Translations under genes and position numbers: made by a program
The notes under the pieces: model-generated
What the model saw: the letters and a program-made list of their open reading frames with translations, nothing else
Databases searched by the model: none
What the model was told of the DNA's origin: nothing
IMG/VR virus record: IMGVR_UViG_3300011115_000270
Coordinates: 1 to 21,019 of that record
Length of the DNA: 21,019 bases
Reading direction: 5' to 3' (one strand)
Source of the DNA: a virus
Shown here: positions 1,433 to 13,222 of the stretch, piece after piece
Layout: each line of letters starts with the position of its first letter
Position numbering within the stretch: position 1 is the stretch's first letter

Positions 1433-2041
1433 ATGATTAACGTAACGCCTACTGCGGAACACCCTGTTCCGTTTGACCTGTCCGATGAGCAGCCCAAGAC
1501 TCATGCGGATAGCGTAGCCATTGCCGTGAATACCGCTGACCTGATTGCTCAGCTAGGTGGAAGCATTGACTACGGTAACGAAGACCTAGAAGCTGCGAAG
1601 AAGCTCATACTAGGTGAGGGAAAACCCGAGAAGCCTAAAACGCTGGCCATATCTGCACAGGCCCAAGCTACATCGGTGCTCATCAAGCAGTTCGACTACA
1701 CGGCCTTTGCCGACCAACTACAAGCGCGGAACTTCATCACCAACCGCCTGATAGAGATAGCAGCGTGCGGAGACACGAAACATGAACTCAAGGCGTTAGA
1801 ACTGCTAGGTAAACACAGCGATATCGGCCTCTTCACTGAGCGCAGCGAGATTCATGTGCACCACACCACATCCGTAACACTTGAGAACAGCATCAAGGAG
1901 CGGGTCAAGCGGCTATTGAATGCCGAGGTCACAGACGTAACACCACTAGACGACCTTGACCTCCAGCTTGGGCCGGAAGAACCGTTCCAGCCCGTAGAAC
2001 ACCCACAAGACGAACAGTCAGAGGCCCAAAACGGTGAGTGA
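1433..2041 (+). CDS. terS: Terminase small subunit (probable)
   Basis: Probable DNA-recognition subunit of the packaging motor, which binds the packaging site and hands DNA to the large subunit. It is assigned mainly by position: it lies directly before the large terminase and overlaps it by eight bases. The content also fits. A helical central part (residues about 60-165 of 202) contains an ITNRLIEIAACGDTKHELKA-type segment and an oligomerisation-like helix (SIKERVKRLLNAEV), and is followed by an acidic, Pro/Gln-rich C-terminal tail. ATG 1433 is preferred. An in-frame GTG at 1403 would add ten residues but overlaps the possible -10 box. Neither start has a strong ribosome binding site. Confidence 0.72.
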   Translation: MINVTPTAEHPVPFDLSDEQPKTHADSVAIAVNTADLIAQLGGSIDYGNEDLEAAKKLILGEGKPEKPKTLAISAQAQATSVLIKQFDYTAFADQLQARNFITNRLIEIAACGDTKHELKALELLGKHSDIGLFTERSEIHVHHTTSVTLENSIKERVKRLLNAEVTDVTPLDDLDLQLGPEEPFQPVEHPQDEQSEAQNGE

Positions 2042-3554
2042 CATCACTCTAAAAGACATTGAGACCCTGCTTAGCTCGGGAAAATTGACCGAGAGTGACC
2101 TCCGTGTGCTCGAAGCGCAGCTAAATAAGCTGGAAAAGCTCAAAGAAAAAGAACTTTGTGCCACAAGATTCATCAAATTCGTTGAAAAAGTCTGGCCAAC
2201 GTTCATTTCTGGGGCGCACCACAAGAGAATGGCCAATGCGTTCGAGCGCGTAGCCCGTGGAGAGTGCAAAAGGCTCATCATCAACATGCCGCCACGGCAT
2301 ACCAAGTCAGAATTTGCGTCTTATTTGCTCCCGGCGTGGTTTTTGGGGCAGTTTCCGGGCAAAAAAGTCATCCAGACATCACACACTGCCGAGTTGGCCG
2401 TGGGTTTTGGTAGAAAAGTGCGTAACTTGGTGGACTCAGACATCTACCACGAGATTTTTCCCGAATTGCACCTCCAAGCGGACTCCAAAGCGGCTGGCCG
2501 GTGGAACACCAGCAAGGGCGGCGACTACTTCGCTATCGGTGTGGGCGGTGCGGTGACCGGTAAGGGTGCTGACATCCTCATCATTGACGACCCACACTCA
2601 GAACAAGAGGCGGCGATGGCCGCGAGCAACCCAGAAGTCTATGACAAGGTGTACGAGTGGTACACGTCAGGCCCACGTCAGCGTCTCCAGCCCGGAGGCT
2701 CTATTGTTATTGTTATGACCCGGTGGTCTCAGAGGGACTTGACCGGTCAGGTCTTGCGTGCAGCCGCTGCGCGTAGTGGTGAGGAGTGGGAGGTCATCGA
2801 GTTCCCGGCCATCCTGCCCTCGGGCAATCCACTGTGGCCGCAGTTCTGGTCTATTGAGGAGTTGGAGGCGCTGCACAAAGAGCTGCCCAACGCCAAGTGG
2901 CAGGCGCAGTACCAGCAGAACCCAGTGGGTAACGAGTCCGCTATTGTGAAGCGAGACTGGTGGAAATGGTGGGAGAAAGACCACCCACCCCAGTGCGAGT
3001 ACATCCTCCAGACGTGGGACACGGCGTTTGAGAAATCCAACCGGGCCGACTACTCCGCTGGGACGACGTGGGGGATTTTTAGCCTTGACGAGGACAAGCA
3101 GAACAAGAACATCATCCTGCTCAACACCTACAAGAAGCGGGTGGAGTATCCAGACCTCAAGCGCGACGTGCTGGCCGAGTACCGGGAGTTTGAGCCGGAT
3201 GGGGTGTTGATTGAGAAGAAGGCGTCAGGTGCACCTCTTATATATGACCTTCGGGCGATGGGCATACCAGTGCAGGACTACACGCCGGGTAAGGGCCAAG
3301 ACAAGATTGCTCGTCTCAATGCAGTATCAGACATAATCGCCTCGGGAAAAGTATGGGTGCCACAAACACGGTGGGCAGAAGAGTTGGTCGATGAGATTGC
3401 GGAGTTCCCGTCCGGGCAGCACGACGACTTAGTGGATGCGACAACATTGGCGCTTATGAGGTTCAGGCAAGGTGGGTTTCTCCGACTGCCCAGTGACGAG
3501 CCGGAAGAGATTCAGTATTTCAGACGCCGCAACGAGCGGTTCTATTCAGTCTAA
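2034..3554 (+). CDS. terL: Terminase large subunit (ATPase and nuclease)
   Basis: Packaging motor that cuts concatemeric DNA and pumps it into the procapsid using ATP. The N-terminal ATPase has a Walker A variant at residues 86-92 (PPRHTKS), a Walker B at 181-186 (ILIIDD) and a motif III-like VIVMTRW at 225-231. The C-terminal RNase H-like nuclease shows the expected acidic positions: D329 in QTWDTAF, E394 in VLIEKKASGA, and D464/D465 in GQHDDLVDAT. The length of 506 aa is normal for the family. The start is a GTG at 2034 that overlaps the end of the small subunit gene, suggesting translational coupling. Confidence 0.95.
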   Translation: MSDITLKDIETLLSSGKLTESDLRVLEAQLNKLEKLKEKELCATRFIKFVEKVWPTFISGAHHKRMANAFERVARGECKRLIINMPPRHTKSEFASYLLPAWFLGQFPGKKVIQTSHTAELAVGFGRKVRNLVDSDIYHEIFPELHLQADSKAAGRWNTSKGGDYFAIGVGGAVTGKGADILIIDDPHSEQEAAMAASNPEVYDKVYEWYTSGPRQRLQPGGSIVIVMTRWSQRDLTGQVLRAAAARSGEEWEVIEFPAILPSGNPLWPQFWSIEELEALHKELPNAKWQAQYQQNPVGNESAIVKRDWWKWWEKDHPPQCEYILQTWDTAFEKSNRADYSAGTTWGIFSLDEDKQNKNIILLNTYKKRVEYPDLKRDVLAEYREFEPDGVLIEKKASGAPLIYDLRAMGIPVQDYTPGKGQDKIARLNAVSDIIASGKVWVPQTRWAEELVDEIAEFPSGQHDDLVDATTLALMRFRQGGFLRLPSDEPEEIQYFRRRNERFYSV

Positions 3555-3569
3555 CGCGAAGGAAAGATT

Positions 3570-6077
3570 ATGGCTACGAGTTCAATGGACAAATCCCTGT
3601 ACCAAGCTCCAGTGGGGCTGGCCGAGATGATGGACGCTCCTGATGTGGAGATTGAGGTCGAAGACCCGGAGTCCATGAGTATCAGTATGGGGGACGTAGA
3701 GATTGACCTCGAACCCCAGAAAGAAACTGCTGAAGCCTTCGATGCAAACTTGGCCGACTTCATGGACGACTCGGAGCTTCAAGCTCTGGGTAACGACTTG
3801 GTGGACGACTTCGTCAAGGACGGCATGGACCGTAAGGACTGGATTAAGACCTACATTGACGGACTGAAGCTGCTGGGTCTGAACTACGAAGAGCGCACTG
3901 AGCCGTGGCAAGGTGCATGTGGTGTGTTCCACCCAATGTTGACCGAGGCAGTTGTGCGGTTCCAGTCCGAGGCGATGATGGAGACCTTCCCAGCGATGGG
4001 CCCGGTGAAGACACAGATTGTGGGTGAGACCGACCTGCTGAAGGAAGAGTCTGCTGCCCGTGTCCGTGAGGACATGAACTACCAGCTTACCGAGGTGATG
4101 ACCGAGTACCGCCCGGAGCACGAGAAGATGTTGTGGTCACTGCCGCTGGCAGGCTCTGCGTTCAAGAAGGTCTACTACGACCCGAGCAAAGAACGTCAGA
4201 TGGCGATGTTTGTCACCGCCGAGGACATCGTAGTGCCGTATGGAGCCAGTAGCTTGGAGACTGCCGAGCGGGTCACGCACGTCATGCGTAAGACCAAGAA
4301 TGAAGTGTTGAAGCTGCAAGAGGCTGGGTTCTATTGCGACGTGGACCTCGGTGAGCCGTCGATGGAGTTGGATGACATCGAGAAGCAGAAGGCTGAAGAG
4401 CAGGGCATGACTGCCTTGCAGGACGACCGGTTTCGTATCCTTGAGATGCACGTTGACTTGGACCTCCCCGGTTACGAGCACAAGAACAAGAAGGGTGAGC
4501 CCACGGGCATCGCACTGCCGTACGTGGTGACGTTGGAGAAGTCCACCCGTCAGATTCTGGCCATCCGTCGCAATTGGTACGAGGACGATGAGCTCCACAG
4601 CAAGCGCCAGCACTTTGTGCACTACCAGTACATCCCCGGCTTCGGCTTCTATGGATACGGTCTTATCCACTTGATTGGTGGCTACGCTCGTAGCGCCACG
4701 ATGCTCATCCGTCAGTTGGTGGATGCCGGTACGCTGTCTAACCTGCCCGGTGGCTTGAAGTCCCGTGGCCTGCGTATCAAGGGTGATGACACTCCCATCC
4801 AGCCGGGCGAGTTCCGCGACGTGGATGTGCCAAGCGGCTCTATCCGGGACAACATTCTCCCTCTGCCGTACAAGGAGCCAAGTCAGGTTCTGTTTGCGCT
4901 GTTCCAGAACATCGTCCAAGAAGGTCGGGCGTTTGCATCCAGCGGGGACATGAACGTCTCGGACATGAGCACCAACGCTCCGGTGGGCACCACATTAGCC
5001 CTACTCGAAAGAACCCTGAAAGTGATGACGGCTGTTCAGGCCCGCATCCACTACTCGATGAAACAGGAGTTCAAGCTCCTCAAAGTCATCATCGCCGACT
5101 ACACACCGGGGGAGTATGACTACGAGCCAGTGGATGCTGGCCGTCGGGCGAAGAAGGAAGACTACGATGCCGTGGATGTCATCCCGGTCAGTGACCCAAA
5201 TGCCGCGACGATGGCACAGAAGATTGTGCAGTATCAAGCGGTATTGCAGTTGGCCCAGTCAGCCCCGCAGTTGTACAACTTGCCACTTCTGCACCGTCAG
5301 ATGATTGAGGTCTTGGGTATCAAGAATGCCGAGAAGCTCGTGCCGGTGGATGATGACGCAGTGCCGACGGACCCCATACAGGAAAACCAGAACGTGCTGA
5401 TGGGCAAGCCGGTCAAGGCGTTTATGGAGCAGAACCACCAAGCGCACATTCAGGTGCACATGTCTGCGATACAGAACCCCAAGATTCAGCAGATGCTACA
5501 GATGAACCCAGCAGCCCAAGCCATCATGGCCGCAGCTATGGCGCACGTCAACGAGCACGTTGCCTTTGAGTACCGCCGACAGGTTGAGCAGGCGATGGGC
5601 ATGGCCCTGCCGTCTGAAGAGCAGAACAAGCAGGTGTCTCCTGAGTTGGCTGACCAGATTGCGATGTTGGCCGCGCAAGCATCCCAGCAGTTGCTCCAAC
5701 GTGACCAGCAAGCAGCCCAGCAACAGCAGGCTCAACAGAAGATGCAGGACCCCGTGGTCCAGATGCAGATGCAAGAACTCCAGCTACGTCAGCAGGACTT
5801 GGAGCTTAAAAAGCAAAAGCAAGCGACAGACGCTGCTGCCAAGGCCGACCAGATTGAGATTGAGAAGGCGCGGATTGCTGCCCAGAAGGAAATCGCAGCT
5901 ATGCAGGTAGGGGCTACCGCAGCCGCTGCACGGGACAAAGTTCAGAAACAGCAGCAGACCGATGGCATGCGTATGGGCGTGGAGATTGCCAAGCACAGGG
6001 CCCAGATGGTAGTGCAGAACGCACAGCGTATGGCACAGAGACAACAACCCTCGCAAAAACCGCCTAAGAAAGGGTAA
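3570..6077 (+). CDS. Portal (head-to-tail connector) protein
   Basis: Forms the ring at one head vertex through which DNA enters and leaves, and docks the terminase. The assignment rests on its place between the large terminase and the scaffold, its large size (835 aa), and sequence typical of large phage portals. That sequence includes an EPWQGACGVFHPMLTEAVVR stretch at residues 111-130 and a following FQSEAMMETFP segment. The first 60 residues are acidic. From about residue 700 to 790 the chain is very rich in Gln, Lys and Glu (QQAAQQQQAQQKMQD), a probable coiled coil. It ends in a basic tail. The start ATG 3570 has AAGGAA nine bases upstream. Many portals are shorter; the long Gln-rich tail is the unusual part. 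Confidence 0.88.
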   Translation: MATSSMDKSLYQAPVGLAEMMDAPDVEIEVEDPESMSISMGDVEIDLEPQKETAEAFDANLADFMDDSELQALGNDLVDDFVKDGMDRKDWIKTYIDGLKLLGLNYEERTEPWQGACGVFHPMLTEAVVRFQSEAMMETFPAMGPVKTQIVGETDLLKEESAARVREDMNYQLTEVMTEYRPEHEKMLWSLPLAGSAFKKVYYDPSKERQMAMFVTAEDIVVPYGASSLETAERVTHVMRKTKNEVLKLQEAGFYCDVDLGEPSMELDDIEKQKAEEQGMTALQDDRFRILEMHVDLDLPGYEHKNKKGEPTGIALPYVVTLEKSTRQILAIRRNWYEDDELHSKRQHFVHYQYIPGFGFYGYGLIHLIGGYARSATMLIRQLVDAGTLSNLPGGLKSRGLRIKGDDTPIQPGEFRDVDVPSGSIRDNILPLPYKEPSQVLFALFQNIVQEGRAFASSGDMNVSDMSTNAPVGTTLALLERTLKVMTAVQARIHYSMKQEFKLLKVIIADYTPGEYDYEPVDAGRRAKKEDYDAVDVIPVSDPNAATMAQKIVQYQAVLQLAQSAPQLYNLPLLHRQMIEVLGIKNAEKLVPVDDDAVPTDPIQENQNVLMGKPVKAFMEQNHQAHIQVHMSAIQNPKIQQMLQMNPAAQAIMAAAMAHVNEHVAFEYRRQVEQAMGMALPSEEQNKQVSPELADQIAMLAAQASQQLLQRDQQAAQQQQAQQKMQDPVVQMQMQELQLRQQDLELKKQKQATDAAAKADQIEIEKARIAAQKEIAAMQVGATAAAARDKVQKQQQTDGMRMGVEIAKHRAQMVVQNAQRMAQRQQPSQKPPKKG

Positions 6078-6079
6078 AC

Positions 6080-6277
6080 ATGGACAACGACCGGGTACTT
6101 AACTACCTTGCGACTGAGATTGAGAAATTACGTACCGACCAAGCTTCGTTTTTAGCTATGGGTCGAGCAAACGATTTTGCCGAGTATCGGCATGTCTGTG
6201 GAGTCATCCGGGGTCTGACTCATGCGGAAACCATCGTTAGAGACCTCGTGCAAAGACTGGAGAAAATTGATGACTGA
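6080..6277 (+). CDS. Small conserved-type protein (65 aa) after the portal
   Basis: Unrecognised by function. It starts two bases after the portal stop codon, with AAGGG five bases upstream inside the portal end. The product is short and helical (begins MDNDRVLNYLATEIEKLRTD) with a second helix, THAETIVRDLVQRLEKIDD, and has no cysteine pair or membrane segment. Its stop overlaps the next start (ATG 6270), so it is translated with the portal and co-chaperonin genes. It could be a small structural or assembly factor. Confidence is high that it is coding and low for any role. Confidence 0.75.
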   Translation: MDNDRVLNYLATEIEKLRTDQASFLAMGRANDFAEYRHVCGVIRGLTHAETIVRDLVQRLEKIDD

Positions 6278-6680
6278 ATTTGATGTCGCCGCTGTGGACT
6301 TGTCCGGCATTCTTAATACGAGTGCAGAAGACAAAGCCAAGCAGTTGCCTGACCCTAAGACCTTTCAACTTCTGTGCGTTGTTCCAGAAGCTATGGAGGA
6401 GTATGCGGACAGTGAAGTTGGGCTGCTTAAGGACAGCAAGACCATGCACTATGAAGAAGTACTGACCCCAGTGCTGTTTGTAGTCAAGATGGGCCCTGAT
6501 GCATTTCAAGACAAAACCCGGTTCCCTAGTGGGCCTTCGTGTGCACTGGGTGACTTCGTCATTGTCCGACCCAATTCAGGCACCCGCTTGAAGATTCACG
6601 GGCGTGAGTTCCGGCTCATTGCAGATACCTCAGTCGAGGCAACAGTCGAAGACCCTAGAGGCATATCAAGAGCAGCATGA
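6270..6680 (+). CDS. GroES-like co-chaperonin
   Basis: Residues 64-130 match the GroES fold pattern: VLTPVLFVVKMGPDAFQD, then GDFVIVRPNSGTRLKIHG (94-111), then EFRLIADTSVEATVED (113-128). These correspond to the bacterial VGPG..., VGDRVLF..YSGTEVK.DG and EY.I..E.DILAV segments. The first 60 residues form an extension absent from bacterial GroES. ATG 6270 has GGAGA six bases upstream; an in-frame ATG at 6222 lies deep inside the previous gene and is less likely. Phage relatives such as T4 gp31 replace host GroES so that GroEL can fold the capsid protein. Its place among portal, scaffold and capsid genes fits such a role here, which remains inferred. Confidence 0.8.
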   Translation: MTEFDVAAVDLSGILNTSAEDKAKQLPDPKTFQLLCVVPEAMEEYADSEVGLLKDSKTMHYEEVLTPVLFVVKMGPDAFQDKTRFPSGPSCALGDFVIVRPNSGTRLKIHGREFRLIADTSVEATVEDPRGISRAA

Positions 6681-7195
6681 AAACATGTTCTTCATGCAGG
6701 GTAGAAAAACCCGCAGACCAATTTGTAAGGGCGCAATGTAAACCTTGCCGCAATCAAAAAATTATGGCGTGGCGCAAGGCAAACCCGGACAGATGCAGGG
6801 CTGCAAAACAAAAGTACTACGCTTCGGATAAAGGTAAAACGCAGAAACGTAAAGAAGACGCCGCATATGTAGCGTCCGGGGGTAAGGCCCTTTCTGAACG
6901 TAAACGTGCGGAACAACCTGTATCTGAGGCTAGAAAACAAGCCAGACTCCGGTATCAATTGATGCGCCGGTCTGGTGAAAAAGTACTTAACCCATTTGAT
7001 GCTTGGGTATTGAAAGAAGCTGTCGAACTTGCCCGGTTGCGTAAGCAAGTATGTGGTGGGGAATGGCATGTGGACCACATTGTCCCAGTCAGCAAAGGTG
7101 GGCTATGCACACACGACAACTTACAAGTTGTCCCGGCCTATTGGAACCGGTCAAAATCCAACAAACACACCGAGCAATTTTTTGCCCGTGCTTAA
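6677..7195 (+). CDS. HNH endonuclease with N-terminal zinc finger
   Basis: A DNA-cutting enzyme of the HNH family. The catalytic region is at residues 128-163: HVDHIVPVSKGG (131-142) holds the HxxH/DH pair, followed by DNLQVVPAYWNRSKSNK, which supplies the conserved Asn and the final Asn/Lys. Four cysteines near the N-terminus (C4, C7, C21, C24) form a likely zinc finger. A basic, Lys/Arg-rich linker joins the parts. ATG 6677 overlaps the stop of the GroES-like gene (ATGA). It may be a free-standing homing endonuclease inserted among head genes, or an HNH protein that assists packaging, as known for some phages. The sequence does not decide between these. Confidence 0.88.
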   Translation: MKTCSSCRVEKPADQFVRAQCKPCRNQKIMAWRKANPDRCRAAKQKYYASDKGKTQKRKEDAAYVASGGKALSERKRAEQPVSEARKQARLRYQLMRRSGEKVLNPFDAWVLKEAVELARLRKQVCGGEWHVDHIVPVSKGGLCTHDNLQVVPAYWNRSKSNKHTEQFFARA

Positions 7196-11668: not shown

Positions 11669-11893
11669 ATGGCTGATATCAAATACACAGACTCAACCCC
11701 CGTAGATGAGCCCGTGGCTCCTCCTCCAAAAAAGAAATCTTCCGCTACCAAGCAATCCAAGCCTGTTCTTTACCCTGACTCCGTCCCAGTGGATGAGCCA
11801 GTCCGTAAAGCGGCTGGTGGCTCGGTATCCAGCGCATCTTCTCGTGCAGATGGTGTTGCCCAACGCGGCAAGACAAAAGGACGGATGTGCTAA
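11669..11893 (+). CDS. Small protein (74 aa) with shared C-terminal basic tail
   Basis: The N-terminal half contains two similar acidic/proline units (TDSTPVDEPV at about 7-16 and PDSVPVDEPV at about 36-45) separated by a Lys-rich linker. The last 25 residues carry the tail GGSVSSASSRADGVAQRGKT followed by KGRMC. Almost the same tail ends the 203-aa protein at 12611 and a related one occurs in the 154-aa protein at 12136. Its synonymous codons differ from those copies, indicating selection on the protein sequence. Starts at ATG 11669 after a short gap with a weak ribosome binding site. Function unknown. Confidence 0.72.
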   Translation: MADIKYTDSTPVDEPVAPPPKKKSSATKQSKPVLYPDSVPVDEPVRKAAGGSVSSASSRADGVAQRGKTKGRMC

Positions 11894-12136
11894 ATGGAAT
11901 CGCTCAACACAGTATGGTCTGCGGGCCTAACAATGGCTACGACGGTAATCGGTTTTCTAATCAAGGAAAAATTTGCAGAACTGAACCGGATAAGCATTTT
12001 GCTCAACAAGACCCGAGAGGAAATTGCTCGTGATTACGTTACTCAAACAGAAATTCAGCGCATTACTGACCACATTGACCAACGCTTTAACAAGCTTGAA
12101 GCAAAAATTGACCAGCTTCTTCGTGCGGGGAAATGA
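11894..12136 (+). CDS. Membrane-anchored coiled-coil protein (80 aa), possible lysis accessory
   Basis: One hydrophobic segment near the N-terminus (about residues 7-23, VWSAGLTMATTVIGFLI) is followed by a polar, probably coiled-coil domain ending TEIQRITDHIDQRFNKLEAK and IDQLLRAGK. This single-span plus coiled-coil layout resembles XhlA/holin-associated or spanin-like small phage proteins, but no specific family is established. It directly abuts the preceding stop codon and overlaps the next start (ATGA), so it is expressed within the structural operon. A role in the virion or tail-membrane contact is equally possible. Confidence 0.75.
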   Translation: MESLNTVWSAGLTMATTVIGFLIKEKFAELNRISILLNKTREEIARDYVTQTEIQRITDHIDQRFNKLEAKIDQLLRAGK

Positions 12137-12600
12137 TGCCAGCGACAAGCGCTAAGCAAAAGAAATTCATGGATGCTGCAGCGCACAACAAAGCGTTTGC
12201 CCAGCAGTCCGGGGTACCTCAGTCCGTTGCAAAAGACTTTAGCGAAGCTAGCAAAGGAATGAAGTTTGGTAAGGGGCCTAAATCACGGGCCGATTTGCAA
12301 CGCATCAACAAGCCTGAGACTCGACAAGGCAAAATGGAACTATTTAAGAAAGGTGGTGACACTATGGCTACTAAGATGAACCCCGGTTTTATGGCGATGA
12401 TGGCTAAGAAGAAGGGCGCTGCTCCTTCCGCAATGGGTAAGCCGACCATGAAAAAAGGTATGGACGTGGCTAAAGACGGCATGAAGAAGATGGCTTCTGG
12501 CGGTCTGGCTGCTGGCCACAAGAGCGCCGACGGTATTGCCTCCAAGGGCAAGACCAAGGCTCGTCAAGTGAAGATGAACAAGGGCGGCATGGCTTGCTAA
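12136..12600 (+). CDS. Small basic two-part protein (154 aa) with KGG-type tail
   Basis: The N-terminal part (MPATSAKQKKFMDAAAHNKA then VPQSVAKDFSEASKGMKFGK) is a pattern I know from many phage small proteins of unknown function. The second part from about residue 77 (MATKMNPGFMAMMAKKKG) is Met/Lys/Gly-rich and ends with GHKSADGIASKGKTKARQ and KGGMAC, a variant of the tail found in two neighbours. ATG 12136 follows GGGG at a suitable distance; ATG 12133 one codon earlier is also possible. An internal ATG at 12364, preceded by AAGGTGG, could produce the second part alone. The two parts may be a fusion of separate genes. Confidence 0.75.
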   Translation: MPATSAKQKKFMDAAAHNKAFAQQSGVPQSVAKDFSEASKGMKFGKGPKSRADLQRINKPETRQGKMELFKKGGDTMATKMNPGFMAMMAKKKGAAPSAMGKPTMKKGMDVAKDGMKKMASGGLAAGHKSADGIASKGKTKARQVKMNKGGMAC

Positions 12601-12610
12601 GGAGCTAATC

Positions 12611-13222
12611 ATGGCTGATGAAGAAAAAACTTCCCCCAAGCGTCCTGACCAAAGCCGTCTCAAGGTCACTAAAGAAGAGCTAGAGGCATCGGGCCTTAGC
12701 TTGCGTGACTACATGAACAAACAGCTTGGGCTGAAACGTCGAGATGGCTCTGCTCCCGAGTCTGCTTCTACTGCAAAAGCCCCTGCAAAAGCCCCTGCAA
12801 AAGCCGCTATGTCTACCTCTGAAACGGCGGCGAATAACTTGGACTTTGACCCAGCAAGGAACAGCAGTGATAGGTTGGCAGAATCTCGGTACCGAACCAT
12901 GGAAGCTCAGCGTAGGTCTGATGACTACGGTGAAACAGCAAAGACCAACGCAGAAGTTGAAGCTAGGAACAAGCTGACGGACAAAGACTTTAATTCTTTG
13001 GGGAACATCCAACGCCGTAAAGCCGCCGTAGATACCGTGAAAAGCATTCCTTCTGCTATTGGGGACTACGTAAGTAGCCTTGGGGCACGAGAGCAAAAAC
13101 ACGGAACGTACGTAAAAGACGGCAAAGTGGTGAAGTACGCCAAAGGTGGCTCGGTCTCTAGCGCTTCCAGCCGTGGCGATGGTTGTGCGCAACGGGGCAA
13201 AACCAAAGGCCGTTATCTATGA
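12611..13222 (+). CDS. Protein (203 aa) with SAP-like start and shared basic tail
   Basis: Residues about 18-40 (KVTKEELEASGLSLRDYMNK) form a short helical motif seen in phage proteins of unknown role. A low-complexity hinge (AKAPAKAPAKA, about residues 55-65) is encoded by a 12-bp tandem repeat. The middle is charged and helical. The end, residues 178-203, is YAKGGSVSSASSRGDGCAQR plus GKTKGRYL, nearly identical to the end of the 74-aa protein at 11669. AAGGAG lies six to seven bases before ATG 12611. It may be an unstructured or DNA-associated internal protein. Function is not known. Confidence 0.78.
   Translation: MADEEKTSPKRPDQSRLKVTKEELEASGLSLRDYMNKQLGLKRRDGSAPESASTAKAPAKAPAKAAMSTSETAANNLDFDPARNSSDRLAESRYRTMEAQRRSDDYGETAKTNAEVEARNKLTDKDFNSLGNIQRRKAAVDTVKSIPSAIGDYVSSLGAREQKHGTYVKDGKVVKYAKGGSVSSASSRGDGCAQRGKTKGRYL
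12771..12806 (+). repeat. 12-bp tandem repeat inside the 203-aa gene
   Basis: CTGCAAAAGCCC occurs at 12771-12782 and 12783-12794, and a third copy at 12795-12806 differs in its last base. It encodes an Ala-Lys-Ala-Pro hinge. Exact copies suggest recent slippage expansion, so the copy number may vary between related phages. Confidence 0.85.

Follow-up and report, generated by a model that had tools for sequence, protein, structure and literature searches.

The window analysed here is the whole stretch of 21,019 nucleotides from a viral genome, and its head-gene region carries the features collected in Table 1. The 136-residue open reading frame that the first-pass annotation had reported as a GroES-like co-chaperonin is borne out as a gene: it begins with an ATG that is overlapped for 8 nt by the upstream 65-residue reading frame, and it is preceded by a Shine-Dalgarno-like motif. 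Comparison with 74 relatives gave a median dN/dS of 0.075, a value that reflects purifying selection and argues that the gene is real and constrained. The length of the product is identical in 92 of 165 relatives. A sigma-70 scan around the gene yielded no signal exceeding chance.

Table 1. Coordinates of the co-chaperonin gene, its parts and its neighbours in the window
Feature	Coordinates	Strand	Basis
Terminase large subunit gene	2034..3554	+	phrog_38, E=3e-106
Portal protein gene	3570..6077	+	phrog_1216, E=4e-26
65-aa ORF overlapping the co-chaperonin start	6080..6277	+	found in 154/166 loci
GGAG Shine-Dalgarno-like motif	6259..6262	+	7 nt upstream of the co-chaperonin ATG; direct sequence reading
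Cpn10/GroES-like co-chaperonin gene	6270..6680	+	ORF, 136 aa; PHROG 3188; profile to PDB GroES; AF2 and Foldseek
N-terminal extension, residues 1-26	6270..6347	+	alignments; variable among relatives
GroES domain, residues ~27-128	6348..6653	+	profile alignment to PDB Cpn10; AF2 strands
Putative GroEL-docking mobile loop, residues ~42-62	6393..6455	+	alignments
Lys54 codon AAG at the GroES Leu27 position, third docking-tripeptide residue	6429..6431	+	gapless G-L-L-K / G-I-V-L alignment
HNH / endonuclease VII-like gene, between GroES and presumed scaffold	6677..7195	+	phrog_1035, E=2e-23
Presumed scaffolding protein, 315 aa	7206..8153	+	position only; phrog_28737 (unknown function); same slot in 163/166 loci
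Major capsid protein, 303 aa	9477..10388	+	phrog_371, E=3e-23; Pfam Phage_capsid_4, E=3e-15

The gene lies, as had been claimed, between the portal gene and a scaffold gene, the latter being presumed. The order terminase, portal, 65-residue reading frame, GroES, presumed scaffold, two small proteins and capsid protein is kept in nearly all of 166 loci when contig ends are allowed for, and the co-chaperonin occupies the slot between the portal and capsid genes, flanked by conserved neighbours, that characterizes the head module of HTVC023P-type phages. The HNH gene follows GroES in only 5 of the 166 loci, the window included, and resembles a mobile free-standing endonuclease. Three neighbouring small proteins encoded beyond the capsid gene (11669-11893, 12133-12600 and 12611-13222) end in much the same way, with a tail that reads SSASSRADG-x-AQRGKTKGR or nearly so.

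The relationship to GroES was examined with the single protein, with a profile of its relatives and with a predicted structure. Searched alone, the window protein matched the PHROG family phrog_3188, 'co-chaperonin GroES', over residues 71-127 (E=7e-4), with E=0.008 against NCBIfam and E=0.7 in a phmmer search of PDB sequences; no Cpn10 match was obtained against Pfam. A profile of 21 relatives matched Cpn10 proteins in the PDB (GroES and Cpn20) over residues ~25-126 with E values from 3e-11 to 1e-6, and 20 of the 21 relatives match the Pfam Cpn10 family (PF00166). The comparison with Cpn10 models that the first-pass annotation had proposed as a check is thus positive for the profile of relatives and negative for the single sequence against Pfam. 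An earlier AlphaFold run on 40 close relatives only was unusable (pLDDT 45) because the alignment was too shallow; the model was rescued by adding marine and canonical-type viral Cpn10 proteins, which gave an alignment of 102 diverse sequences, a pLDDT of 86.7 and a pTM of 0.75. The GroES-like beta barrel, whose absence the first-pass annotation had named as refuting its claim, is present in this model. In a Foldseek search of the PDB the first 36 matches were all Cpn10, GroES or gp31, with TM-scores to the target mostly of 0.55-0.78, and the closest viral folds are likewise named GroES. Identity to the solved Cpn10 proteins is about 10-24%. On these profile matches and this predicted fold we identify the product of 6270-6680 as a diverged protein of the Cpn10/GroES fold, and the GroES-like identity first proposed for it stands.

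The internal layout of the protein differs from the one first described, in which a core of residues 64-130 followed an N-terminal extension of 60 residues. In our alignments the domain starts at about residue 27, with the first predicted beta strand at residues 33-37 and the others at 68-74, 96-98, 105-109, 112-118 and 124-126, which leaves an extension of about 26 residues. Within the near clade this extension varies in sequence and in length (9-43 residues ahead of Pro29), and its identity to the window is 0.44, compared with 0.73 for the core. The idea that a non-standard N-terminus offers a new partner interface is not supported, the extension being brief and of low conservation; the altered interface appears to lie in the docking loop instead. 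The span from Pro29 to Gly75 comprises 46 residues in the window, 43 in most of the family and mostly 38-40 in short canonical-type viral Cpn10 proteins, so that the docking region is about 4 residues longer across the family than in these short proteins, and 3 residues longer again in the window subclade. The segment corresponding to the roof loop has 19 residues (18 in GroES) and is modelled without hairpin strands.

The docking loop also carries an unusual residue. In E. coli GroES the tripeptide Ile25-Val26-Leu27 touches GroEL, and the mutations L27A and L27D abolish binding (PMC5575113, PMC3514286). Instead of a fully hydrophobic tripeptide of the IVL type, the window protein has G-L-L-K, in which two residues remain hydrophobic and Lys54 takes the position of Leu27. 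We rejected the alternative of a register shifted by one residue because intermediate sequences of the pattern KT-x-GG-I-I-K anchor the alignment. Two of them, KTEGGIIKAD and KTAGGIFKSD, can be laid on KTKGGIVLPD with no gap, which makes the register safe. Lysine is found at the anchor position in 46 of 48 near-clade representatives. Of 51 sister sequences, 50 have a hydrophobic residue there (Leu, Ile, Phe, Met or Tyr); the 15 cellular GroES proteins sampled have Ile or Leu, and T4 gp31 has Ile. On a tree built with the anchor position left unmasked, lysine was gained once, on a branch with support 100/97, and its only later replacements are one by Arg and one by Met.

A lysine in place of Leu27 implies that docking to GroEL must be weaker or must use other contacts. 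A large branch of aquatic phages has fixed lysine at an anchor regarded as essential, and it may be, as we put forward tentatively, that its co-chaperonin therefore docks in another mode or has abandoned GroEL for a dedicated role in folding or assembling the proteins of one capsid family. The lysine is a variant that occurs in nature under strong selection, at a contact which, judging by laboratory mutants, is indispensable, and it provides a test of how the GroEL-GroES interface really works. The literature that we searched contained no report of Lys54 or of the association with the capsid protein described below; its coverage was partial, and either may already be published.

The lysine keeps alive an explanation in which the Cpn10 fold was retained, the capping of GroEL was lost, and the protein would serve directly in head assembly by binding capsid, scaffold or portal proteins. 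The loss of this very anchor ends GroEL binding in E. coli, the residue became nearly invariant after its single origin, and in most loci the gene lies immediately 5' of the presumed scaffold gene. However, the docking loop is kept and the other two tripeptide residues are still hydrophobic, the tripeptide is canonical in sister phages whose genes are arranged identically, and the position of Cpn10 away from the head genes in two genomes suits a diffusible lid; we consider this explanation rather unlikely. A modulator of the host chaperonin, which would, for example, mix into host GroES heptamers or dock more weakly and thereby favour phage clients or faster cycling instead of forming a full lid, would also accommodate the lysine. 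Folding of a client via single-ring GroEL persists when two modules of an engineered GroES ring are weakened (PMC5575113), and Lys54 looks like a weakened anchor. The divergence of the subunit from the solved Cpn10 proteins makes mixed rings doubtful, though, and we regard modulation as quite improbable.

The second characteristic feature of the gene is its association with one family of major capsid proteins. The capsid-protein search matched 21 phage records, and exactly one Cpn10 was found in each of the 14 distinct phage genomes tested that encode the window's capsid-protein family, among them Caulobacter phage GB2A, whose Cpn10 is annotated as hypothetical. Two of the genomes, W13 and W14, seemed at first to lack GroES because the slot in the head module is empty; this was rejected when a genome search located Cpn10 elsewhere in both, outside the head genes. 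No Cpn10 was detected in six unrelated phages (lambda, T7, P22, HTVC010P, HTVC019P and P-SSP7) by a search that did detect T4 gp31 as a control. As an unselected set we used 81 IMG/VR contigs, many of them fragments, retrieved with arbitrary short patterns; a 14-mer supplied the control set, whereas a 16-mer had matched a single contig and a gapped pattern had matched nothing. Cpn10 is present in 5 of 5 contigs with the capsid protein and in 1 of 76 without it (Fisher p 2.3e-7, or 9e-6 when contig G023, with a weak capsid match, is left out; both values ignore shared ancestry). The window's capsid family thus occurs in 5 of these 81 arbitrary viral contigs and in 5 of the 6 that bear Cpn10, and the group may supply most of the phage GroES genes in IMG/VR.

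The distances between GroES proteins correlate with those between capsid proteins (Spearman 0.87, reached in 0 of 500 permutations), as is expected from joint inheritance. The same correlation is predicted if the protein is an ordinary GroES lid that tolerates the lysine and serves the folding of late proteins in general, the capsid association being a consequence of the shared inheritance of the head module; since the whole neighbourhood is conserved, other neighbours would be equally possible clients. This seems unlikely to us, because the association survives at 25-40% capsid identity and in the distant W13 and W14, where Cpn10 has left the module, and because a merely tolerated lysine sits poorly with the Ile or Leu of all sampled cellular GroES proteins.

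The phages of this group appear to rely on a chaperonin that they do not encode. A search for Cpn60/GroEL found none in 15 long phage records of the group and 9 further capsid relatives (24 genomes), and it was positive in 14 of 14 cellular genomes used as controls; the co-chaperonin must therefore use the GroEL of the host, or no GroEL. One virus recorded with a Methanomicrobiales host (locus L474; vir526, 42883-43134) lacks Cpn60 although it encodes a Cpn10, located outside the head genes, which raises the question of which chaperonin its Cpn10 serves. Assignment of a host from genome bins was rejected, as the 23 matches in bins (loci L181-L203) are spread over bacterial and archaeal bins of unrelated phyla, with four in one Bacteroidetes bin, and are likely mis-binned phage DNA.

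Considering all of the above, we favour, with a probability of about 0.6, the interpretation that the co-chaperonin is a lid on host GroEL that helps to fold the phage major capsid protein and has a re-tuned dock. The proposed mechanism would include the following steps: (i) the Cpn10 subunits would assemble as a seven-fold lid, (ii) this lid would cap the GroEL of the host, the phages having none of their own, and (iii) the capped GroEL would help to fold the major capsid protein, which is encoded in the same head module. In the branch of the window the docking loop would have been re-tuned, being longer than that of GroES and having lysine as its third anchor residue. The first-pass annotation had suggested a GroEL-dependent capsid; the co-chaperonin role in this suggestion is supported by the fold, the neighbourhood and the strict co-occurrence with the capsid protein, and the dependence on GroEL, like the heptamer and the folding of the capsid protein, is what we infer from them. 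A precedent is provided by T4 gp31, which is required for the folding of the T4 capsid protein gp23 (PMC6318259). Speaking against this interpretation are the lysine at the site of the E. coli L27A and L27D mutants, the failure of the single sequence to reach the Pfam Cpn10 model, and the small size of the window's capsid protein (303 aa), which does not call for the larger cage that has been argued for in T4. The purpose of the known phage GroES genes is mostly assumed from T4, and because the gene pairs strictly with a single family of capsid proteins, a testable folding client can now be named.

GroES relatives are known from many aquatic phages, and a phage GroES gene in the slot between portal and capsid genes is not new either. 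All seven related phage records annotate the gene as GroES, and GroES has been reported to belong to the core genes of the HTVC023P-type pelagiphages (PMC9599517); it has also been reported in other phages, such as Pseudoalteromonas phage B8b (PMC4294664). The HTVC023P-type pelagiphages (HTVC023P, HTVC027P) and the Planktothrix phage Pag-Yong1 and Synechococcus phage MinM2 share with the window the head-module slot, the capsid-protein family and the family-wide lengthening of the loop. Their GroES proteins are about 25-45% identical to that of the window, whose subclade has 3 more loop residues, and they differ in the tripeptide region, which is hydrophobic in the pelagiphages (GLIL, GVIL), GIIR in Pag-Yong1 and MinM2, and GLLK in the window branch.

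T4 gp31, which works with host GroEL (PMC6318259), resembles the window protein in being a phage Cpn10 fold (PDB 1g31 was among the structural matches) with a lengthened docking loop, the gp31 loops having 22 residues compared with 16 (PMC6318259). The two show no close sequence similarity, the tripeptide is LII in gp31 and LLK in the window, and gp31 is without the roof loop (PMC6318259), whereas the corresponding segment in the window keeps the length found in GroES. Bacterial GroES/Cpn10 proteins share with the window protein the predicted fold and the position of the docking loop, but the latter is distinguished from them by its 26-residue extension, its longer loop and the lysine in place of Leu27, and also by a conserved FPxGPxC segment and a DPRGI tail.
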